Part shown: piece by piece, positions 5,190 through 54,986 of the stretch
Position numbering within the stretch: the first letter of the stretch is position 1
Layout: each line of letters starts with the position of its first letter
Assembly: GCF_000240165.1 (NCBI RefSeq)
Contig: NC_017586.1
Span: 4,154,001 to 4,218,000 of the forward strand
Reading direction: 5' to 3'
DNA from: Streptantibioticus cattleyicolor NRRL 8057 = DSM 46488
Lineage (GTDB): Bacteria; Actinomycetota; Actinomycetes; Streptomycetales; Streptomycetaceae
Length of the DNA: 64,000 bases
The notes under the pieces: model-generated
What the model saw: the letters and a program-made list of their open reading frames with translations, nothing else
What the model was told of the DNA's origin: nothing
Databases searched by the model: none
Translations under genes and position numbers: made by a program

Positions 5190-6084
5190 CCGCCCGATGG
5201 CGTTGCTGGTCGCGGCCCTGGCGGCGGTGGCGGTGGCCGGGGCCAGGGCCGGCCTCGCGCTGCTGCGCCGCCCGCCCCGGCTCCCCGCCGACCTCGCGGT
5301 CGCCCTGGAGGTCGGCGCCACCCGCACCACCCGGGTCGGCTCGCTGGTCGACCGGCTCGGCATGCGGTACGCGCCGCTGGTGCTGCGGGCGATGGGCCCG
5401 GCCCGGGTGGCGAAGGTACGCCGCCGGCTCGACCTGGCCGGCAACCCCGGCGGCCTGACCGTCGACCGCTACGCCGCCCGCCGCGCGGTCTACGGCGCCC
5501 TCGGCCTGACCGGCGCCGTGGTCTGCGCCGCACGCGGCCGGTTCCTCCTCGTCCCGCCGCTGCTCGCCTTCGCGCTGTGGTGGACGGACCTGGGCATCTG
5601 GCTGGCGGTCCGGCAGCGCAAGGAGGAGATCGAACGCACCCTCGCCGACTTCCTCGACGTCCTGGCGGTGGTGGTCGGCGCCGGACTCGGCTTCCGGCAG
5701 GCGCTCGAACGCGTCGCCGACAACCACCGGGGACCGTGGGCCGACGAGATCCGCATCACCCTGCGCCAACTCGACCTGGGCGTCGGCCGCCGCCAGGCCT
5801 TCGACGAACTGCGCCGGCGCAACGGCTCCGACCAGGTCGCCCAGTTCACCACCGCGTTGCAGCAGGGCGAGGAACTCGGCGCCCCGATCGCCGAGACGCT
5901 CATCCGGATCGCCAAGGACATGCGGCGCACCGACGCCCAGAACGCCCGCCGCCGGGCCGCCCGGGCGGTGCCCAGGTCCACCCTGGTGATCACCACGCTG
6001 ATGGTCCCGGCCACCATGATCCTGCTGCTCGCCGGGTTCTTCCTGGGCAACCACATCGGCTTCGGGCAGGTCATCGGCGAGTGA
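5182..6084 (+). CDS. tadC: TadC inner-membrane pilus assembly protein
   Basis: 300 aa. Same GspF-like layout as TadB: N-terminal helix, a helical pair around 100-140, a T2SSF domain (about 150-265, with [13 protein letters not shown] and [12 protein letters not shown]) and a C-terminal helix. It pairs with TadB as the platform of the Flp pilus machine. ATG 5182 lies inside the end of tadB. The stop overlaps the GTG of the histidine kinase gene, so the regulators are translationally coupled to the pilus genes. Confidence 0.88.
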
Positions 6085-7313
6085 CGGATCCGGCCCGCGC
6101 GCTCGACGTCTCCGCCCTCCAGGCGCTGTGCCGCCAGGTGTTCGGGTTCCGCCTGGCGGTGCTCGCGCTCGCCTCGCCGGTGGCGCTGGTACGGGTCGGC
6201 CCGGGCGCCGCGGCCTGGGCCACCGGATCGGCGGTGGTCATCACCTTCATGGGCAGCTACCTGCTCTTCCGCGACTGGGAACGCTTCGGCCCGCTGCTGC
6301 TGCGCCACCCCGCGCTGCTCGCGGTGGACTCGCTCTTCGCCGCCGTGCTGCTCACCGCCGGCACCGTGCACAGCCCGCTGGCGTACGTGACGGTGTGCAC
6401 CCCGCTGCTGGCCGGGCTCGTGTACGGGCGGCGCGGGGCGCTGCTGTTCACCGCGTTGCAGATCGCGGTGCTCGGCGCCGTGGTGGCGCTGGACGGACCG
6501 GGCGGACGGCTGGACGGCGTGCTGCTGCTGCCCGGCTTCTGCGTGGTCGCCGGGGTCGCCGGGGTCACCCTGCGCCGGCTGATGCTGGGGTTCGGCGAGG
6601 CCACCCGGGCGCTCACCCGGACCCGGGCGCGGCTGGCGGCGGCCGAGGCGGTGGCCGCCGAACGGGCCCGGCTCGCCCGGGAGATGCACGACTCGGTGGC
6701 CAAGACGCTGCACGGGGTCACCCTGGCCGCCGAGGCGCTGGCCGCCTGCGCCGACCGGCTCGACCCCGCCGCCCTGCGCGACCGGGCCGACCTCGTGGCC
6801 CGTTCCGCCCGCCGCGCCGCCGACGAGTCCCGCGCGCTCCTGGCCGGACTGCGCCGCGATCCCGACGACGGCCCGCTGGAGCGCCGACTCGCCGGGGCGG
6901 TGGCCGAGTTCACCGACCGCGCCGGACTGCCCGTGGTCCTCGTCCCGCCTTCCGGTCCGTTGCCGGAGCTGCCCGCACCGGTCGTCCGCCATCTGGTCGC
7001 CATCGTCCGGGAGGCCCTGGAGAACGCCCACCGGCACGCCGGGGCCGGCCACGCCGAGGTGGCCGCCGCAGTGGTGGACGGCGCGGTGCGGATCACGGTG
7101 CGGGACGACGGGCGGGGGCTGCCCGCGCACGCCACCGTGGCCGACTGGCGGGCGCGGGGCCGCTTCGGGGTGGTCGGCATGGTCGAGCGGGCCGAAGCGG
7201 TGGGCGCCCGGATCACCATCGGCCCGGCCCGCGACCGGACCGGCACCGAGGTCCGCGTCGACCTGCCGGCCACCACCGCGTCCCGACCGTCACCCTCCCG
7301 GAGGTCCCCATGA
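6081..7313 (+). CDS. Membrane histidine kinase of the Tad locus
   Basis: 410 aa from GTG 6081, overlapping the tadC stop. About five or six hydrophobic segments fill residues 18-170. A HisKA_3-type H-box follows (REMHDSVAKTLHG, phospho-His near 203), then a HATPase with EALENAHRHAG (near 312) and DDGRGLP. This is the NarL/DesK-type architecture, partnering the LuxR-type regulator encoded next. Its location inside the pilus operon suggests it senses an envelope signal and controls pilus or developmental genes. The signal cannot be read from the sequence. Confidence 0.88.
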   Translation: MTDPARALDVSALQALCRQVFGFRLAVLALASPVALVRVGPGAAAWATGSAVVITFMGSYLLFRDWERFGPLLLRHPALLAVDSLFAAVLLTAGTVHSPLAYVTVCTPLLAGLVYGRRGALLFTALQIAVLGAVVALDGPGGRLDGVLLLPGFCVVAGVAGVTLRRLMLGFGEATRALTRTRARLAAAEAVAAERARLAREMHDSVAKTLHGVTLAAEALAACADRLDPAALRDRADLVARSARRAADESRALLAGLRRDPDDGPLERRLAGAVAEFTDRAGLPVVLVPPSGPLPELPAPVVRHLVAIVREALENAHRHAGAGHAEVAAAVVDGAVRITVRDDGRGLPAHATVADWRARGRFGVVGMVERAEAVGARITIGPARDRTGTEVRVDLPATTASRPSPSRRSP

Positions 7314-7969
7314 CGACGCCAGGCACCCTGCCCCGGCCGCTGCGGGTGGTCGTGGCCGACGACAACCCCGTGGTGCGGGCCGGACTCGGCGCGCTGCTCA
7401 CCGCCCGCCCCGGCATCGAGGTGGTCGCCGAGGCCGCCGACGGCCGCCAGGCGTACGAGGCCGCCGCCGCGCACCGGCCCGACCTGGTGCTGCTCGACGT
7501 CCGGATGCCCGGCACGGACGGGCTGGCCGCGCTGCCCGGGCTGGCCCGCATCGCCCCGGTGCTGATGCTCACCTGGCGCGGCGAGCCCGGCACCGTACGG
7601 GAGGCGATCCGGCGCGGCGCCGGCGGATACCTGGTGCATGGCGAGTTCACCGCCGACCAGTTGGTGGCCGCGGTGCGGGACACCTCCGCCGGGCGGGCGG
7701 CGCTGACCACGAGCGCGGCGACCGCGCTGCTGGCCGAGGTGCGCGGCGGGACCGGGGAGCCGGAGCCGGACCGGGCCCGGTTCCGGCTCAGCCGCCGCGA
7801 GGCGGAGGTGATGGAGCTGATCGCCGGCGGCCTGAACAACCGGCAGATCGCCGCCGCCTGCTTCATCAGCGAGAAGACCGTCAAGAACCACGTCAACCGG
7901 ATCTTCGGCAAGCTGCACGCGGACAGCCGCAGCCAGGCCGTCGCCCGCTGGCTGGGCACCGCCCGCTGA
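7310..7969 (+). CDS. LuxR-type response regulator of the Tad locus
   Basis: 219 aa from ATG 7310, with GGAGG ten bases upstream and a 4-base overlap with the kinase stop. The receiver domain has the acidic pair ADDN near the start and phospho-Asp63 in LLDVRMPG. A LuxR/GerE helix-turn-helix covers about 155-215 (LSRREAEVMELIAGGLNNRQIA and SEKTVKNHVNRIF). One oddity: the usual receiver Thr/Ser and Lys positions read LMLTWRGEPG and YLVHGE, so the switch residues look altered. The target is probably the pilin promoter between 7970 and 8080, by inference. Confidence 0.88.
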   Translation: MTTPGTLPRPLRVVVADDNPVVRAGLGALLTARPGIEVVAEAADGRQAYEAAAAHRPDLVLLDVRMPGTDGLAALPGLARIAPVLMLTWRGEPGTVREAIRRGAGGYLVHGEFTADQLVAAVRDTSAGRAALTTSAATALLAEVRGGTGEPEPDRARFRLSRREAEVMELIAGGLNNRQIAAACFISEKTVKNHVNRIFGKLHADSRSQAVARWLGTAR

Positions 7970-46176: not shown

Positions 46177-47295
46177 CTACGCCGCTTCATCGACCTGCGG
46201 CTGGGCATCGGCGGACTGGTCCGCGTACGCCTTGTCGACGGCGGCCCGGGTCCGCTCCTCGGAGTCGGGCCACAGGTGGGTGTAGATGTTCAGCGTCATG
46301 GCCGCGTTGGTGTGGCCAAGTCGCTCGGAGACCGTCTTCACGGACTCGCCGTGCTTGATCAGCAGGCTGGCGTAGTGATGCCGGAGGGCGTGAGGTCCGG
46401 TGCCTTTCGGTATGCCGGCCTTCGCGCAGGCGGGCCGCCAGGACCCGTCCATGAAGTGCGTGTAGACCACGGGTCCGCCTTGCGGCGCCGTGAAGATCCA
46501 GCCCTCGGGCCCATCGGCGGGGAAGTCCCGCAGGTGGGCCTTCATCGCATCCACCGCCATGCGGGGGAGCGGGACCGTGCGGTGCGAGCGATCGGTCTTG
46601 GGCGGGCAGACGTACACGCCGTGCTTGGCGGTCTGCTGGATCTGCTGCTCGACCGAGACGGTCGCGTGCAGCAGGTCCACGTGCTGGAGCTGGAGGCCGA
46701 ACAACTCGCCGGGGCGGAGCCCGGTGGCCGCGCCGAGCAGCACGAGGCCCTTATAGCGGGCGGGTATCTCTTCGGACAGCGTCCGTACCTGCTCGACGGC
46801 CAGGGGCACGATCTTCTTCCGTGGTACCGAGGGCAGTTTCGCCTCGGCGCAGGGGTTGTGGGGGATCATCCGGTCACGAACGGCCGCCCGGAAGACGGCG
46901 TTGACCGTGTTGAAAACCGTCCGTGAGGTGCTGGCGGCCAGCCCGTGCGTGGTGGTGAGGCCGGTGACCCAGCTCTGTACGTCGCCGGGCTTGATGGCGC
47001 CGAGTGCCCGCTTCTCCCAGGCCGGGTAGACGTAGCAGCGCAGGTGCTGGGCCACCGCCTTGGCCGTGGAAGGCCGGTGCGGCTGGATGGCCCGCCATTC
47101 CTCCGCGTACTCCTTGAAGGGCTTCTTCGCCGATCGAGGGTCAACGTACTGACCGGTGACCAGGCTGGCAGTGACCTCGTCGATCCACCGCTGGGCGTCG
47201 ATCTTCCGCTCGAAGTGGCGGGCATGCTCCTTGCCGTCGAGGTCGCGGTAGCGGGCCCGCCATTTGCCGTTGGGGCGCTTCTGGATGTTGGCCAA
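46177..47295 (-). CDS. int: Tyrosine recombinase (integrase)
   Basis: 372 aa. TTG 47295 is the start, placed just behind AGGAGAGG. The N-terminal AP2-like arm-binding segment has RPNGKWRARYRDLDGKEH. A SAM-like core-binding domain spans about 55-145. The catalytic residues are Arg194 (TGLRPGE), His302 and Arg305 (HALRHHYA), His328 (LGHTN) and Tyr338 (YTHL). It resembles integrases of actinobacterial elements such as pSAM2. It lies about 100 bases from the att site in ychF, its evident target. Confidence 0.95.
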   Translation of the reverse strand: MANIQKRPNGKWRARYRDLDGKEHARHFERKIDAQRWIDEVTASLVTGQYVDPRSAKKPFKEYAEEWRAIQPHRPSTAKAVAQHLRCYVYPAWEKRALGAIKPGDVQSWVTGLTTTHGLAASTSRTVFNTVNAVFRAAVRDRMIPHNPCAEAKLPSVPRKKIVPLAVEQVRTLSEEIPARYKGLVLLGAATGLRPGELFGLQLQHVDLLHATVSVEQQIQQTAKHGVYVCPPKTDRSHRTVPLPRMAVDAMKAHLRDFPADGPEGWIFTAPQGGPVVYTHFMDGSWRPACAKAGIPKGTGPHALRHHYASLLIKHGESVKTVSERLGHTNAAMTLNIYTHLWPDSEERTRAAVDKAYADQSADAQPQVDEAA

Positions 47296-47319: not shown

Positions 47320-47820
47320 TCAGTAGTGGCCGCCGTCCTCGATGTCACCGCTGAGGGTGCGAGCGTCCCGCTCGTCACCCATGAGGCGGAGGCACTGCTC
47401 GTGGATCGCCCGCGAGCTGTCGGGGTGGGCCTTGATGTGGTCGGCGATGGCGACCACGGCGTGGTGCAGGCGGTCGCGCGCGTCTCGGGCCTCGTAGAAC
47501 GCTTCGACGGCCTCTTGGACGAGGCGCCGGCTGTCGATGTCGAGCCCCTCCAGGGGCGGGGACATCAGTTCTTCGAGAGGAAGCTCGAAGACGCGTGAGA
47601 AGGCGAGGGCCTCGTCGAGGTTGATGCGCCGACGGGGGGTGCCGTTCTCGATGCGCCAGACCGCTGTCTGGTTCATCTTGACGCCGGCTCTGGTCACCCG
47701 CTCGGCCAGCTCGGTCGTGCTCCACCCTCTGACCTCGCGCTCCAAGGCCACGCGCGCGGCCACGTTCCCTTCGCTGTAGAGCAGCGGTACTTCGCCGCCC
47801 TCGGGCCTGTCGCCTGCCAT
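47320..47820 (-). CDS. XRE-family regulator of the element
   Basis: 166 aa from ATG 47820 after GGAGG. The HTH is at about 25-75 (WSTTELAERVTRAGVKMNQ and AVWRIENG). The C-terminal half is helical. It ends 25 bases upstream of int on the same strand and is divergent from the excisionase-like gene, so it probably represses excision and replication genes, as in lysogeny switches. The divergent spacer at 47821-47941 is AT-rich. Confidence 0.88.
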   Translation of the reverse strand: MAGDRPEGGEVPLLYSEGNVAARVALEREVRGWSTTELAERVTRAGVKMNQTAVWRIENGTPRRRINLDEALAFSRVFELPLEELMSPPLEGLDIDSRRLVQEAVEAFYEARDARDRLHHAVVAIADHIKAHPDSSRAIHEQCLRLMGDERDARTLSGDIEDGGHY

Positions 47821-47941: not shown

Positions 47942-48136
47942 ATGCGATACCTGACCACTGCCGAGGTCGCCGAGCGCTACCGCACAGCAGAGAGCACCGT
48001 CCGCTACTGGCGCCACATCGGAAAGGGGCCGCGCGGCATCAAGGTCGGCAAGCGGGTCCTGTACCCCGAGGCCGAGCTGCTGCGGTACGAGCGCACGCTG
48101 ATCGACGGCCAGGACGAATGGGACCTGGCCTCGTGA
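47942..48136 (+). CDS. xis: Excisionase-like small HTH protein
   Basis: 64 aa from ATG 47942. The segment YLTTAEVAERYRTAESTVRYWRHIGKG, then GIKVGKRVLYPEAEL, is the MerR-like winged helix of AlpA/excisionase family proteins. It is paired with int across the XRE gene, the usual arrangement for Xis. A 29-codon frame starts in the overlapping GTGA (48133-48222) but lacks recognisable features and overlaps a hairpin. Confidence 0.83.
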   Translation: MRYLTTAEVAERYRTAESTVRYWRHIGKGPRGIKVGKRVLYPEAELLRYERTLIDGQDEWDLAS

Positions 48137-48163
48137 GCCACCGACAGGCCCAGACACAGCAAC

Positions 48164-48284: not shown

Positions 48285-49910
48285 ATGGAGGACTCTACGT
48301 CCCCCTCCACCTCGAACACATCCCACAAGGTCGTCTGGCCTACCGCTGCGGTCCCCGGCCAGGGCGTCCCCTGGCGCAACGGGGACCGAAGCGGGGACCG
48401 AAAGGAGTCACGGTCCCCGGCTGCACCCGCCAGCGGCGATACTCCGACGGGCGTTCCGGTCGGGGACCGAAATTTCCCCAGCACGGAGCATGCGCAGGTC
48501 AGCGTCTTGGGGACCGGTCCCGCCGGAGCGGAAGCCGGGGACCGGGTGGAGACTTTCGGTCCGCCGGTCCCCGAACCCGGTCCCCGAATTTCGGGCGAGT
48601 ACGGCGCGCCCCGAGCCGATGGTGAGAGCCACGGTCCCCACGAATCTGCGGGGACCGTGGTCCCCGACGGCGGATCGGGGACCGGGGACCGCGCTGGTAC
48701 GGGCGGCGAGACGGCCGACGAGGGAGCCGCGCTGCTGGACGACCTGCACGCGGCGATCGGCCGGTACGTGGTGCTGCCGAGCGGCGAGGCATTGACCGCG
48801 GTCACCCTGTGGGTGGCGGCCTCCCATATCCAGCCCGCCCTCCAGCATGCGCCGCGCCTGACGGTGGTGGGGCCGACCAAGGGGTGCGGCAAGTCCCGGG
48901 TCTTGGACGTGCTCCACGAGACCGTGTCCCGGCCGATGATGACGGTGAACACCTCGCCGGCGGTGGTCTTCCGGATCATCGGCGAGGACCCGCCGACGCT
49001 GCTGGTGGACGAGGCTGACACCATCTTCGGCCCCAAGGCCGGTGACAAGGAGGACCTCCGGGGCCTGCTGAACGCCGGACACCAGCGCAACCGCCCCGCC
49101 TGGCGGATCTCCGGCCCGGAACACAAGCCGACCGCGTTCCCGACCTTCGCCATGGCCGCGCTGGCAGGCATCGGCGACCTGCCGGACACGATCATGGACC
49201 GTGCCGTCGTGCTCCGCATGCAGAAGCGCAAGCCCGGCGAGAAGGTCGCTCCCTTCCGCTCCCGGCACTCCGTCCCGGAACTGAACGCGCTGCGCGACAG
49301 GCTGGCCGCATGGCTGACCCCACTACGCGGGACAGCGCACCGCCTGGTGCCACCGATGCCGGTCGAGGACCGCGCCGCCGATACGTGGGAGCCGCTGGTG
49401 ATCGTCGCCGACCTCGCCGGCGGCCACTGGCCCGTCCAAGCCCGTGCGGCCTGCCTGGCGATGACCAGGAACGAGGTGGTCCATGACGAGCAGACGACGC
49501 TGAAGACCCGGTTGCTCCGGGACATCCGCCGTGTCTTCGAGCACCAGGGCGACACGGAGGCGCTGCGCAGCCACGACCTGCTCGCCGCCCTCGTCCAGGA
49601 CGCCGAGGCGCCGTGGGGCGAGTACGGGACGAAGGGCCTGAACGCCTACCACCTGGCCAACCTGCTGCGCGACTTCGGCATCAGCCCGGCCAACCACCGC
49701 TTCGAGAACGGCCGACAGGCCAAGGCGTATGCCCGCAACCAGTTCCTCGACGCCTGGGCCCGCTACTGCCCCGACCCCGCCCAACCGGCCCCCGCAGCCA
49801 ACGAGGCCACGCTCGCACGTCGAGCCCAGGGCAAGCCACCGGCCCCTCCCTCGGGGACGTTGCCCATCGGCCCGCCAGGCGGGCCTGCCGGCCCCAGGTC
49901 CACTCGCTGA
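48285..49910 (+). CDS. DUF3631 replication-type ATPase of the element
   Basis: 541 aa from ATG 48285 (GAGAGGAA upstream). The first 150 residues are low-complexity, Gly/Pro/Asp/Arg-rich, with a set of GDR tripeptides caused by a DNA repeat. Residues about 150-475 hold a DUF3631 domain with P-loop GPTKGCGKS (196-204) and Walker B TLLVDEADTIFG (about 238-249). DUF3631 proteins are helicase-like and often fused to primase modules in actinobacterial plasmids and phages. Here no primase domain is visible. Likely role: replication of the excised circle. Confidence 0.8.
   Translation: MEDSTSPSTSNTSHKVVWPTAAVPGQGVPWRNGDRSGDRKESRSPAAPASGDTPTGVPVGDRNFPSTEHAQVSVLGTGPAGAEAGDRVETFGPPVPEPGPRISGEYGAPRADGESHGPHESAGTVVPDGGSGTGDRAGTGGETADEGAALLDDLHAAIGRYVVLPSGEALTAVTLWVAASHIQPALQHAPRLTVVGPTKGCGKSRVLDVLHETVSRPMMTVNTSPAVVFRIIGEDPPTLLVDEADTIFGPKAGDKEDLRGLLNAGHQRNRPAWRISGPEHKPTAFPTFAMAALAGIGDLPDTIMDRAVVLRMQKRKPGEKVAPFRSRHSVPELNALRDRLAAWLTPLRGTAHRLVPPMPVEDRAADTWEPLVIVADLAGGHWPVQARAACLAMTRNEVVHDEQTTLKTRLLRDIRRVFEHQGDTEALRSHDLLAALVQDAEAPWGEYGTKGLNAYHLANLLRDFGISPANHRFENGRQAKAYARNQFLDAWARYCPDPAQPAPAANEATLARRAQGKPPAPPSGTLPIGPPGGPAGPRSTR
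48349..48691. repeat. Cluster of 13 GGGGACCG octamers (iteron-like array)
   Basis: Exact GGGGACCG starts at 48381, 48393, 48462, 48509, 48537, 48650, 48677 and 48684; its complement CGGTCCCC at 48349, 48411, 48565, 48578 and 48632. Near copies (TGGTCCCC, CGGTCC) lie between. Copies fall in all three reading frames and both orientations, so the protein sequence does not explain them. This is what a replication origin with initiator-binding iterons would look like, inside the presumed rep gene. Confidence 0.75.
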
Positions 49911-50090
49911 CACCAGCTCCGTATCAATCCGTCGCATCCGTCCCCGCGCAGGTCAGCGCGGGGACGGACTTCCTCGCCGATACGGATCACTCCGTACCTT
50001 CGACCGCCTCCGTACCTGTCCTGACCAGCTACGGGACGGATGCAACGGACGTGACGAAGCCCCACCCCACACGACCACCGGAGCACCACC
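49911..50090. other. oriT-like spacer before mobC
   Basis: 180 bases between the DUF3631 and mobC genes, dense in repeats: a perfect 13-bp hairpin (49937-49968), TACGGA-TCAC-TCCGTA at 49981-49996, a 10-base direct repeat CTCCGTACCT at 49990-49999 and 50008-50017, and TCCGT units at 49918, 49928 and 49937 about one helical turn apart. Its place directly ahead of MobC and relaxase genes is where oriT is normally found. The nick site cannot be assigned. Confidence 0.6.
49937..49968. repeat. 13-bp perfect inverted repeat (terminator or oriT hairpin)
   Basis: TCCGTCCCCGCGC (49937-49949), loop AGGTCA, and its exact complement (49956-49968), 27 bases after the DUF3631 stop. Confidence 0.8.
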
Positions 50091-50777
50091 ATGCCCGAAC
50101 CGAGCACCGACAACTCCCCCACCCGCCGCCGCAAGGGATTCTTCGGCCTGACCCGCCGATCAGCAGCAAGCTGGAGCGAACGAGCCTCTAACGAGGCTTC
50201 GTCCGCGCTTGCCCCCGCCCCAGGGGTGGCGGAGGAGAAGGCCGAGCGCCAGGGGGCGCCCGAGCCGGAGGGGGTCATAGCCGACTCCGCCGACCTCCGC
50301 ACCCAGCCGCCGACCGACGTCCAACCGCCCATCGAGCAGCCCTCCTGGCGAGATCCCGATGCCCCCGCCCTGCCCGCACTGATGAACCGCAAGCGCACCG
50401 TGGAGAAGCGCGACCAGGAGAAGACCATCCGCTTCACGCGGACCGCAGTCGGCGTGATCAGCGCCGCCGCTCACCAGCGCGGGCAGAAGTTCGCCGGATT
50501 CGTCGGCGACGCCGCCCTCGCCGTCGCCCTGGGCAAGGCAGGACTCGTCGGCAGCCCGGAGGACGACCCGGTCCGCCCGCTGATCGAGGCCGTCGAGGCA
50601 CATACGGTCGCGCTGAACCGCATCGGCGGCAACCTCAACCAGATCACCGCAGCCATCCACCGAGGAACCGTGCCCGAACGCGCCGAGGCAGTGCTGGACC
50701 GCGTCGAGCAAGCGGCCGAGAACAGCTACCGACTGAGCGACCAGCTCCTGACGGAAGGCACCGCGCATGGTTCCTGA
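50091..50777 (+). CDS. mobC: MobC-like relaxosome protein
   Basis: 228 aa. A disordered first half (Pro/Glu/Ala-rich) precedes a MobC domain (about 105-215) with ribbon-helix-helix-like KTIRFTRTAVGVISAAAH and the family hallmark LNRIGGNLNQITAAIHRG. MobC proteins help the relaxase to melt and nick oriT. The gene overlaps the relaxase start by 11 bases, so both are made together. ATG 50091 follows a weak RBS. Confidence 0.86.
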   Translation: MPEPSTDNSPTRRRKGFFGLTRRSAASWSERASNEASSALAPAPGVAEEKAERQGAPEPEGVIADSADLRTQPPTDVQPPIEQPSWRDPDAPALPALMNRKRTVEKRDQEKTIRFTRTAVGVISAAAHQRGQKFAGFVGDAALAVALGKAGLVGSPEDDPVRPLIEAVEAHTVALNRIGGNLNQITAAIHRGTVPERAEAVLDRVEQAAENSYRLSDQLLTEGTAHGS

Positions 50778-52464
50778 CGTCTCCACCGGATCCGACACAC
50801 GCGGACTGATCGTCTACCTCTTCGGCCCCGGCCGCCGAGACGAACACACCGACGCTCACATCGTCGCCGCCTGGGACATGGCCGGCGCCGCCGACCCCGG
50901 CCGCGACCCCGAGGCCAGCTACACCCTGCTGGCCAAGCGCCTCGACCACCACGTCGACCTGCGCACCCGCGAGCTGGGCGGCAAGAAACCACCTCAGTAC
51001 GTCTGGCACTGCCCGGTCCGCACCGCGCCCGGCGATCGCTACCTCACCGACACCGAGTGGGCCGAGGTAGCCCGCCGCATCGTTCACGCCACTGGCATCG
51101 CCCCCGAAGGCGACGAGAAGGCATGCCGGTGGATCGCGGTGCGTCACGCCGACGACCACATCCACATCATGGCCACCACCGTCCGCGCCGACGGCCGCCG
51201 CCCGCGCACCCACCACGACGGACAGCGCGCCCAGGCCGAGTGCCGCAAGATCGAGGCCGAGTTCGGCCTGCGCCGCCTGAAGTCCGGCGACCTCACCGCG
51301 CCCCGCACCCCCACCGGCGCCGAACGCGCCAAGGCCGAGCGCCAGGGCCAGACGGTCACGGCACGGCACTGGCTGCGCGAGCAGGCGTACGCGGTCGCCG
51401 CTGCCGTACGAACCGAAGCCGACTACATCACCGTGCTGCAGTCCCTGGGCATCAAGGTCAAGACCCGCCTCGGCCCGGAGACCGGCGACGTGATCGGCTA
51501 CAGCCTCGCCGCCCCCGGCGACACCAACGCGGCCGGCGAACCCGTCTGGTACGGCGGCTCCAAACTCGCCCGCGACCTCTCCATCAACCGCCTACGCGAA
51601 CGCCTCCCCGACCAGAAGGTGGCCGACCACCCGCGGTATGTGGCGGACCCCGCCGACCCATGGCGGCACACCACCACCGCCATACACGCGGCACGCACTG
51701 TCCTCGACTCCGATGACGATGCCGCCGCCCAGGGCCACCTGGCCGCCTTCGGCGACGCCCTGTGCAACATCGCCAGCACCACGACCAGCCCACACCGGGC
51801 GGAACTACGGGCAGCGGCCATGGCGTTCAACCGCGCCCGCCGTTCCGCCACCCGTGCCGACCACCAGGCCGCCACCGCCCTGCTCAAGGCCGCCAAGGAA
51901 CTTGCCTACGCCTCCAACGAGCCGGGCGGACTCGCGATCGCCCTGCTCTTCGCCACCGTGCACCTGGCCCGCGCCGCCGCCAAGTGGCACGAACAGCGCG
52001 GCCACGAACAGCAGGCGGCGGCAGCCGAGGAAGCCTTCCGCCACCTCCAGGCGGGCTACCGACAGGCCGCCACACCCGTCTTGGCCGACTTGGCCCGCCG
52101 CGCACCACGAGCCGCAACCGCCCGCCGCTTCGAGCAAGACGTGCGCGCGGCCCTCCCCGACCACGCCGACCGGATCCTCGCCGACCCCACTTGGACCGCC
52201 CTGACCACAACCCTCGCCCAGGCCGAGACCGCCGGCCACAACCCCCGACGTCTCCTGGCGGAGGTGGGCACCCAGCGGGAACTCGACAGCGCGGAGCGCC
52301 CCGCCGAGGTCCTCAACTGGCGCATCACGGCTCAGCCGAACCGGCGGGCTCAAGCGGCTCGCAGCCGAAGCACCATCAGTGGAACGTCGTCCATGTCCGC
52401 CACGCCACACACTCCGGCCACCCCAGTGGCTACGAGGCCCGAAGAGCGCAGTCGGCACCGCTGA
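50767..52464 (+). CDS. mobA: MOB-type relaxase
   Basis: 565 aa from ATG 50767. The N-terminal relaxase domain has a candidate catalytic Tyr17 (LIVYLFGPGRRDEH) and the metal-binding histidine triad in RHADDHIHI (His127, His131, His133). The GPGRxDEH start is typical of actinobacterial mobilization relaxases. The rest (about 290-540) is helical and Ala-rich. It should nick one strand at oriT and pilot it into a recipient through a helper's secretion channel. Confidence 0.88.
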   Translation: MVPDVSTGSDTRGLIVYLFGPGRRDEHTDAHIVAAWDMAGAADPGRDPEASYTLLAKRLDHHVDLRTRELGGKKPPQYVWHCPVRTAPGDRYLTDTEWAEVARRIVHATGIAPEGDEKACRWIAVRHADDHIHIMATTVRADGRRPRTHHDGQRAQAECRKIEAEFGLRRLKSGDLTAPRTPTGAERAKAERQGQTVTARHWLREQAYAVAAAVRTEADYITVLQSLGIKVKTRLGPETGDVIGYSLAAPGDTNAAGEPVWYGGSKLARDLSINRLRERLPDQKVADHPRYVADPADPWRHTTTAIHAARTVLDSDDDAAAQGHLAAFGDALCNIASTTTSPHRAELRAAAMAFNRARRSATRADHQAATALLKAAKELAYASNEPGGLAIALLFATVHLARAAAKWHEQRGHEQQAAAAEEAFRHLQAGYRQAATPVLADLARRAPRAATARRFEQDVRAALPDHADRILADPTWTALTTTLAQAETAGHNPRRLLAEVGTQRELDSAERPAEVLNWRITAQPNRRAQAARSRSTISGTSSMSATPHTPATPVATRPEERSRHR

Positions 52465-52919: not shown

Positions 52920-54140
52920 TCAGCGCTTCTTGTACCAGCTGGTGACAGCCTCCACGATGTAGCTGATGTTCTGCTGGCGCATCACCGGCGCGTACGCGCC
53001 GACCTCGAAAGACTCCGAGGTCTTCGGATCCTTTCGCCAGATCGACACCTCTTCCACCGGCGCCCCCATGGCGGGGGCGAGGCTGCGGAAGTGGGCCGTG
53101 ATGGCCTCGGTCTCGACGCCGTCCGAACGCAGGTTGTGGAACACCGCCGCGAGGACGCGGAGCATGCCGACCGATCCGAGGAGCGAGTTCTCACGCAGCG
53201 CCTGCGGAGAGAGAGTGCCCTCGGCGACGGCGGTGAGGTCCGGGAAGGCTTCGGTGATGCAGTCGAGGAAGTCGAGGACGGCGGCGACGACCTCGTTGTC
53301 TTCGAGTGCGGCCTCCTTGGCCTTGCTCGTGCGGCCGGTCCCGAACATCACACCCCGGCTGACGTCGGCGACATGCTTGGCCCCGATCAGGTTCGGGTTC
53401 GTCTTGGTCATGCGGTCCTGCTCCATGTCCACGCGCCCCTTCAGGAGAGCGTGACGGATGACGTGGTCGAGAGTGCGATTGGCGACCTTCGAGGAGTCAA
53501 ACCGGGACTTGACCGCAGCCGAGATGCCGCGGGCGTTGTCGGCGACGTCCACGAACATCTGCCGGGCGAGCGCCCCGTCCTTCTCCGCGTAGATGTCCAC
53601 ACCGATGGACTCCGCCCGCAGCCGCTCCAGCTCTCCGACGAACTTGGCCTTCTGCGTGTTCAGCTTCTCCACCCGGTCGGACTTGAGGCCGCCCTTGGCC
53701 AGGGCCCGGTCAATGCCTTGGATCTCGTGTGCCACTCGTTTGATCTCAAGGTCCACGCCGAGGAGCCGATGCTGACCGTCGATGGTCAGCATGAGAGACA
53801 GGCCGGAGTCGGTCCACGGGATCGTCAGATAGCCGATCTCCCCATTCGAGCCCTTCAGGGGATCGAAGGTGCAGCCGCCGGCGTCACGGACCAGGAGGGC
53901 CGGAGCCACCCACCGGGGGTTCGCGAGGTACAGCCCGAACTCCTTGGCGTGGCGCAGGTTGACGCGCCGATTGTCCTCGTCCGGGTCCTCGGGGTCCGGC
54001 AGCGGGAACAGGGTGGTCAGGTCAGTGAGGGGGATGCGGACGCTGTAGACGTCCCGGCCACCCTGGATGGAGTGCATCGCGAGGTAGGTGGACTCTCGCT
54101 TCACGCCGCTGAGGCGGCGAGGGTCAACGGACATCTCCAT
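52920..54140 (-). CDS. Orphan DGQHR-domain protein (DndB/DpdB-like)
   Basis: 406 aa from ATG 54140, nine bases after AAGGAG; an upstream GTG at 54164 is rejected as lying before that RBS. The defining motif is LTIDGQHRLLGV (DGQHR at 121-125), preceded by PRWVAPALLVRD. DGQHR proteins include DndB, the regulator of DNA phosphorothioation, and DpdB of the 7-deazaguanine DNA modification system. No dndACDE or dpd partners are in the window, so it acts alone or with genes elsewhere. A role in DNA modification or defence is inference. Confidence 0.8.
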   Translation of the reverse strand: MEMSVDPRRLSGVKRESTYLAMHSIQGGRDVYSVRIPLTDLTTLFPLPDPEDPDEDNRRVNLRHAKEFGLYLANPRWVAPALLVRDAGGCTFDPLKGSNGEIGYLTIPWTDSGLSLMLTIDGQHRLLGVDLEIKRVAHEIQGIDRALAKGGLKSDRVEKLNTQKAKFVGELERLRAESIGVDIYAEKDGALARQMFVDVADNARGISAAVKSRFDSSKVANRTLDHVIRHALLKGRVDMEQDRMTKTNPNLIGAKHVADVSRGVMFGTGRTSKAKEAALEDNEVVAAVLDFLDCITEAFPDLTAVAEGTLSPQALRENSLLGSVGMLRVLAAVFHNLRSDGVETEAITAHFRSLAPAMGAPVEEVSIWRKDPKTSESFEVGAYAPVMRQQNISYIVEAVTSWYKKR

Positions 54141-54440
54141 ACCTAGTAACTCCTTAACTCGCACAACTAGAAGTTGATGTGACGGCTAAGAAGTTACATG
54201 CGCCGACAAGATCATGTGATGGCATTTAAGAAGTGGCGGACTGTCTTCCGGAACAAGGTGGCGGCGAACCTCGGTGAGTCAGCAGAAGATCGACCTCAAC
54301 GGCGCAACTCCCTGCTGTGGAAGGCCGAAGCCGCCGCAAGCTGCCATCCCGTTCCAGAAGCTGAACGGCGTCCAGGCGCAAGCAGGGCCCACAGCGCACC
54401 TTGGTGGCCTCGGTGCTCGTGGCAGCGAGGGCACCAGTCG
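54141..54440. other. AT-richer spacer with an operator-like palindrome, doubtful small ORFs
   Basis: CAACT-AGA-AGTTG at 54164-54176 and repeated AAGAAGT(T) units (54189, 54229) mark a probable promoter/operator for the DGQHR gene. From 54274 a plus-strand frame reads [19 protein letters not shown], slightly like small actinomycete CCGR proteins, but runs 85 codons into the antisense of the HAD gene, so it is not called as a gene. A decayed gene is possible. Confidence 0.4.
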
Positions 54441-54986
54441 TCAGACGGCGCGGGCTGTGGGTAACTGCGCGACCCACGTTGCCACCTCAGTCAGATGCTC
54501 GGGCTGCAGCCCGAGGTGGGGAGCGGGCTGAACGAGGAGAGTCGCCGTTCCCTTGGCGGTGCGCTCCGCCGCCCAGGCGTGGTCGAGGCCAGTGAAGTCG
54601 TCGTCGATCCAGACGGCGGGGGCGTCGCCCAGCCAGGCGTCGACGTGGTCACGCTTCCACAGGTAGCCGTTGGGGTGGCTGGTGGTGATCTGCGGACGCG
54701 GGAGATCGACGTACGGCAGGGTTGGAAGGCCGAGGAGCGGGCCGATGAGGGTGGTGGCGTCCCGGCGCCAGCTGGTGCACCAGACCGGGGTGACCAGGCC
54801 GGTGCGGATGACGTCCATGAGCAGGCGGCCGTGGTCGGGGTTGAGCCAGACGGTGACCGGGTTGTCGGCGCTGCGGCCGGCGGGGACGACGACGTGGCGG
54901 GCGTGCGTGGCCGGGGTCGAGCCGTGCTCGTCGGGGAAGGGTATGAGGACGCCGTCGATGTCGAGGAGCAGGTAGGGCGGGCGCAT
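54441..54986 (-). CDS. HAD-superfamily hydrolase-like protein
   Basis: 181 aa from ATG 54986 with GGAGGAA upstream. The HAD motif I is [12 protein letters not shown] (Asp9, Asp11). Motif II-like [11 protein letters not shown] and motif IV-like [14 protein letters not shown] are placed as in small HAD proteins related to those fused in RNA-repair enzymes. It probably removes a phosphate from a nucleotide or RNA end; that is inference. It is the last gene of the four-gene minus-strand cluster starting at 57458. Confidence 0.75.

Follow-up and report, generated by a model that had tools for sequence, protein, structure and literature searches.

A two-stranded octamer array in the RepAM gene of a Streptantibioticus cattleyicolor element: linkage to a MobA relaxase and a possible role in mobilization

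The element and its octamer array

The window, i.e., the whole 64,000-nt stretch of DNA that was analyzed, contains an element with genes for an integrase, the putative initiator RepAM, and mobilization proteins (Table 1). DUF3631 corresponds to RepAM, an initiator family of actinomycete integrative elements such as the AICE pMEA300 (PMC3218068). On the left, the element ends close to the stop codon of ychF (46068). In a comparison with ten homologous loci (a ychF was recognised in eight), similarity ends past mobA and restarts at 54278-54491, indicating that the element is about 8 kb long and that the DndB-like gene is variable cargo. The DndB-like gene was unmatched in the 80 homologous loci, and no att direct repeat was recognised at the right end.

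Table 1. Features of the element, with positions in the window
Feature	Position	Strand	Evidence or remark
Tyrosine integrase of the element	46177..47295	-	PF00589, E 5.8e-24
HTH repressor-like gene	47320..47808	-	Weak HTH matches under cut-off
Small ORF, putatively HTH/excisionase-like	47944..48138	+	No family match; kept in most close homologues
RepAM / DUF3631 gene, 541 aa	48285..49910	+	Pfam PF12307, E 7.7e-74, residues 311-494; start and frame conserved in homologues
Array A, 13 GGGGACCG / 16 SSGGACCR	48349..48691	8 +, 5 -	Octamer counts, local shuffles
Array B	49918..50049	.	Nine TCCGT/ACGGA sites; hairpin 49937-49968
MobC-like protein	50091..50777	+	PF05713, E 0.0045, under Pfam cut-off
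Putative oriT-like element: AGCAAGCTG, imperfect hairpin, GC-rich inverted repeat	50165..50232	+	In 5' part of mobC
MobA relaxase	50767..52464	+	PF03432, E 3.5e-9
DndB/DGQHR-domain gene, cargo at right end	52920-54164		PF14072, E 1.2e-29

Matches to the oriT-like element were obtained at 81 of 97 loci (at another place in L020); within the mobC coding sequence it is almost invariant among close homologues. Its fold had a z score of -2.39, and 5 of 200 shuffles were equally stable. An Rfam search gave no match. The AlphaFold model of RepAM (mean pLDDT 39) was too low in confidence for use, and a search for RepAM relatives of solved structure returned one match at chance level (E 0.2).

The first-pass annotation had described 13 copies of GGGGACCG (eight forward, five inverted) in 343 bases and in all reading frames. 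A recount over the 64-kb window gave the same figures, with copies in all three frames of the RepAM coding sequence. The chance expectation over this length had been put far below one; in local dinucleotide shuffles (48285-48720, n = 2000), the mean was indeed 0.29 copies and the maximum 3. The octamer is not rare per se and is exceptional only by its density at array A: the whole window contains 16 copies, including three outside the array (at 5729, 28712, and 41504), and the whole-window shuffle expectation was 13.5. No unrelated 8-mer of the window is denser than seven copies per 343 bases. The array had also been taken for a low-complexity protein tail, which is false, since it covers codons ~22-136 in the N-terminal part of the protein and the DUF3631 match follows at residues 311-494. 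Array A lies in the part of the gene that encodes an N-terminal linker, and a Walker-A-like GPTKGCGKS starts at residue 196. The general form of the octamer is SSGGACCR. In the literature, covered mainly outside subscription journals, no account of the octamer array was found.

Conservation and turnover of the octamers

A single search supplied the 80 homologous loci that were retained, which with the window make 81 genes. By script, 57 were assigned to the GGGGACCG type (GG class, SSGGACCR), 12 to the CCGGACCG type (CC class), and one to the GCGGACCA type; 11 were scored as without an array. Of 77 informative homologues, 70 retain an array; this count excludes L063, L066, and L081, in which the contig cuts the gene start, and includes L068 as array-bearing (script label "none"). 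Copies of CCGGACCG are the majority in 12 loci, which have 7-11 of them plus 2-5 GGGGACCG. The seven array-less homologues (L045, L051, L054, L058, L060, L061, and L069) still have mobC/mobA.

Codon positions were compared in 16 close homologues chosen by hand. Identity at positions 1/2/3 was 0.968/0.970/0.973 in the octamers, 0.836/0.827/0.835 in the bases between them, and 0.937/0.970/0.794 in the RepAM ATPase core. Both octamers and spacers lack the third-position excess expected under protein constraint. When the octamer mask was shifted circularly, 1 of 355 shifts was equally good. The reading frame stays open, with the start of the match and the core in one frame in 63 of the 64 resolved genes (of 81); the sole exception is the frame-shifted RepAM gene (6001-7453) of the array-less element L069. 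Just 20 of 358 forward octamers lie in one of the codon frames, indicating that coding still limits site placement. Spacings between octamers are multiples of three in 46% of cases, and helical phasing of the sites is weak (R 0.18).

In 40 distant GG loci, identity to the window averaged 0.50 over the linker and 0.87 over the core, and 117 of 410 octamers were at an aligned window site. Over the 57 GG loci including the window, the number of octamers per locus was 10.4 on average (sd 2.9, range 5-18). Octamer sites turn over while the count per locus is kept. Selection on array A at the DNA level, as claimed in the first-pass annotation, is strongly supported by the conservation of the octamers (~97% at all codon positions, ~83% in their surroundings). 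The counter-case named there, encoded residues kept and octamers lost, came out the opposite way: distant homologues keep the octamer number, and positions and encoded residues change.

A neutral GC-rich minisatellite or a low-complexity protein repeat is an extremely improbable source of such an array. Three same-strand octamers with short gaps do occur in 108 of 249 genomes, many of them tandem among the matches listed. Array A, however, has octamers on both strands and in all frames, conservation inside the octamers only, and flanks about as unlike each other as random sequence. In ten loci, identity between octamer flanks within a locus was 0.298, versus 0.285 for random 20-mers, and flank pairs at least 60% identical made up 1.0% versus 0.2%. 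Shuffles, octamer-only conservation, dissimilar flanks, and site turnover ruled out chance and minisatellite origin for array A. A long one-strand tandem of GGGGACCGCGCC with a 12-bp period at L271 (genome G515) looks like an ordinary minisatellite.

Array A, array B, and the RepAM origin

The octamers had been proposed to be iterons of an origin within the initiator gene, bound by DUF3631/RepAM. This fits the dense direct and inverted repeats within an initiator gene, the selection on octamer DNA, and the identity of DUF3631 as RepAM, the initiator of pMEA300 (PMC3218068). Array and initiator are nevertheless separable. Seven informative homologues keep RepAM (frameshifted in one) and array B and have no octamers, and octamer arrays were found at 13 loci where the 12-14 kb covered gave no match to DUF3631 at E 1e-3 (L260, L261, L263, L264, L286, L287, L289, L291, L325, L326, and L328-L330). 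Elsewhere in the phylum, DUF3631 goes with arrays 3' of the gene (10 of 23 loci) and not with upstream ones (1 of 23, itself a GGGGACCG locus). The GG/CC difference also came without a consistent change in the RepAM core; residues 234-235 (E/D versus K/N) were rejected as a discriminator because E/D also occurs in five GG loci, one of them the window. Since the octamers are absent with the initiator in 7 of 77 homologues and present without it at 13 loci, DUF3631-bound iterons were discarded as the main reading and are very unlikely. Of the earlier interpretation, selection on DNA holds, whereas the origin bound by the DUF3631 protein gives way to a linkage with MobA. Iterons inside the rep gene occur in pSLA2-type linear plasmids. 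Array A likewise consists of sites embedded in coding sequence, but it occurs independently of the rep gene.

Array B was found downstream of the RepAM stop while substitutes were sought in the array-less genes. In 79 of 81 genes, a 270-base segment spanning the stop contains at least five TCCGT/ACGGA sites; the same length of RepAM core contains 0 to 1.3. The window and 79 of 79 testable close homologues have array B, with or without octamers; L010, where the contig ends, is out of this count, and the frame-shifted L069 was counted as positive from a separate look at its repeats. The hairpin has a 13-bp stem and a z score of -7.35, and none of 200 shuffles was as stable. Other DUF3631 loci have different arrays at the same 3' place, e.g., CCGCTACC, GTGGCGGA, ATGCGGAA, and AGCCGTAA. 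In the phylum-wide draw, the 10 of 23 loci with a 3' array, a count that includes five of the window's own family, were not equaled in any of 200 shuffles, and 13 loci fell short of that level. Toward the 3' end of a DUF3631-related gene of Pseudomonas phage Phipami28 (L085, 5001-6245) are four copies of ATCCGCGACA.

The presence of array B in all testable homologues, together with the other 3' arrays in 10 of 23 loci, makes it a better candidate than array A for the RepAM origin. Judged from sequence, array B probably represents the RepAM iterons or replication origin. RepAM would bind there, and the DUF3631 protein more likely acts at array B than at array A. In section 7 of PMC3218068, RepAM is predicted to be a rolling-circle initiator having pC194-like nick sites; an octamer array is not named there. 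The window's protein belongs to the same family as the pMEA300-type initiators, and 3' repeat arrays are also found in plasmids with RepAM and prim-pol (L082 and L083); the octamer array, unlike these features, is an extra of the mobilizable relatives. L082 and L083 are Streptomyces "plasmids" of 13.5-14.3 kb that look like excised AICEs: they encode an integrase, RepAM, prim-pol, and transfer proteins of the FtsK/TraB type, and a CCGCTACC array follows RepAM on its 3' side. Array B also resembles the oriV of RA3, described as lying at the 3' end of repB (PMC9455977). RA3 is not an actinomycete element, and the likeness is one of location.

Linkage to MobA and a possible role in mobilization

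Arrays were also sought irrespective of genes in 249 Streptomycetaceae genomes, using a minus-strand octamer flanked by two plus-strand octamers as the pattern. It matched in 19 genomes, and a reversed control matched in 2. Sixteen of the 19 matches, including the window, were real arrays with at least eight octamers. All 16 had a MobA-family homologue within ~2.2 kb, the linkage to oriT/mobC/mobA that would mark a relaxosome accessory site. The remaining three (L322-L324) contained 3-4 copies, and the sequence retrieved around them showed no MobA. Four arrays were added by hand from the same-strand search, chosen among the matches listed if dense or two-stranded. With these, MobA was present in 18 of the 19 loci other than the window, and in the remaining one (L290) the contig ends. 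L265, with all octamers on one strand and no MobA/RepAM match, was left out of this set.

At these 19 loci, the gene at the array was RepAM in six cases and an unrelated protein in six; four arrays were near a phage-type replication initiator (PHROG 2149, E 1.3e-26 in the one tested), and three were unassigned. Among the unrelated carriers, those of L261, L263, and L264 had no Pfam match above cut-off, that of L260 had a sub-threshold DUF998 match, that of L287 had a WhiB match in a stop-to-stop frame (probably from the upstream gene), and that of L286 was unmatched in NCBIfam and PHROGs. The distance from array to MobA was 724-808 nt at initiator-type or unassigned loci, 1419-1492 nt with the unrelated protein, and 1926-2136 nt with RepAM. 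The array, under DNA-level selection and with turnover of its sites, is linked to MobA whatever the carrier gene.

The MobA relaxase family was found in at least 62 of 101 Streptomycetaceae genomes. Sixty MobA loci were then taken irrespective of arrays, from among the matches listed, passing over very short contigs and loci already in the set. Four had GG arrays (one at threshold), 11 had TGACCGG arrays (TG class), and 45 scored as neither, some of these carrying other repeats. Since several of the loci passed over were array-positive, 15 of 60 is an underestimate; MobA is not dependent on such an array. The genome of the window has elements with GGGGACCG, CCGGTCA, and CGGGCAG arrays, the latter two in two more MobA elements (L394, CCGGTCA x12; L410, CGGGCAG x8).

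On a MobA tree with 93 rows, the GG class changed 12 times (shuffled mean 27.8) and the TG class 7 times (10.6); there were five changes with GG/TG alone. Near MobA relatives differ in class (L362, L364, and L365). The array class is clustered on the tree and does not simply follow the MobA lineage. MobA columns 475/477 (GG versus CC) and 305 (GG versus TG) separate the classes partially. The former were rejected as specificity residues because the CC residues also occur in array-less loci and in some GG loci; the latter agreed in about four of only five independent GG-TG pairs (p 0.125). No column of MobC, Int, HTH, or Xis separates the classes, the best MobC column difference being 0.53 (GG versus TG). 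The HTH repressor, Xis, and Int were dismissed as binders because they could not be recognised in several of the loci with an array and have no column separating GG from CC (for Int, in 12 GG and 3 CC loci). Class thus changes without a clear, consistent change in the element proteins tested, so the binder is possibly encoded outside the element. We suspect that the reader of array A is an outside factor, e.g., a helper's translocase.

The comparisons suggest that the octamers travel with DNA-transfer genes rather than marking a replication origin. The reading that we favor, with a probability of roughly 0.48, is that array A is a protein-binding-site cluster of a mobilization module, at which a transfer factor collects in cis to oriT. 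Array A (SSGGACCR, here GGGGACCG) would belong to a module with the oriT-like site, mobC, and mobA, hosted by small integrative mobilizable elements of Streptomycetaceae. The array would be placed in or beside whichever gene is upstream: the RepAM linker here, another protein or a position close to a phage-type initiator elsewhere. A DNA-binding transfer factor, possibly encoded by a helper element or the host, would gather on the many sites and would then dock or load the element for transfer. Both protein binding of array A and a role in transfer are what we infer from these associations. Across loci, array A lies about 0.15-1.5 kb from the oriT-like site, which is long for classical relaxosome sites and counts against this reading.

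Nested within the mobilization reading is the unlikely case that the array imitates a clt locus and offers sites for a helper's TraB. TraB is described as binding repeated 8-bp motifs at clt via a winged HTH (PMC5365140, PMC10191066), and such recognition of 8-bp repeats would suit array A. Arrays of CTGACACC/GGTGTCA were found at 4 of 10 TraB-type loci (L422, L423, L424, and L427); they are mostly on one strand and are probable clt loci. TGACACC repeats are reported in the clt of pWTY27, with a separate iteron region beside repAB (PMC3583192), and another array class seen here contains CTGACCGG. That elements of one genome carry different classes (window, L394, and L410) is also in line with a clt-like array. 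Array A shares with the clt/TRS of TraB (pSVH1, pWTY27) multiple 7-8 bp sites lying partly in coding sequence and, presumably, a transfer role. It differs in its sequence and in being two-stranded, whereas clt-like arrays were seen mostly on one strand, and its elements carry a gene for a relaxase, an enzyme not required for transfer by TraB. No GGGGACCG or TGACCGG array was found in 13 TraB/FtsK-type loci (L422-L432, L082, and L083; L432 is a weak match), and two TraB queries gave no match within ~6 kb on either side in L002-L081, L110-L139, and those loci from L260 onward that this search covered.

A partition or handcuffing site would also be compatible with two-directional multi-site arrays. 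It is quite unlikely that a host or element protein reads the octamers for partition, incompatibility, silencing, or gene regulation. The coexistence of different classes in one genome and the tolerated array-less state would agree with this. Against it, partition or regulation gives no ready reason for the MobA linkage across unrelated carrier genes, and several loci with an array have no recognisable HTH repressor or Xis.

The arrays may represent an undescribed class of cis-acting mobility sites, a suggestion that is tentative and on the doubtful side. Such a class would comprise bidirectional arrays of 10-20 sites in or beside unrelated upstream genes, across replication systems, with interchangeable specificity classes (GGGGACCG, CCGGACCG, GCGGACCA, and TGACCGG) and a reader that is not element-encoded, e.g., a helper translocase.

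Streptomyces ICEs are described as being transferred as double-stranded DNA via TraB (PMC5704250), although the relaxase family considered here is common in Streptomycetaceae. For RepAM, with its predicted rolling-circle mechanism (PMC3218068), array B provides a testable origin. A site that travels with a relaxase, and is kept even though it lies inside other genes, would offer a direct approach to the way in which these elements move.
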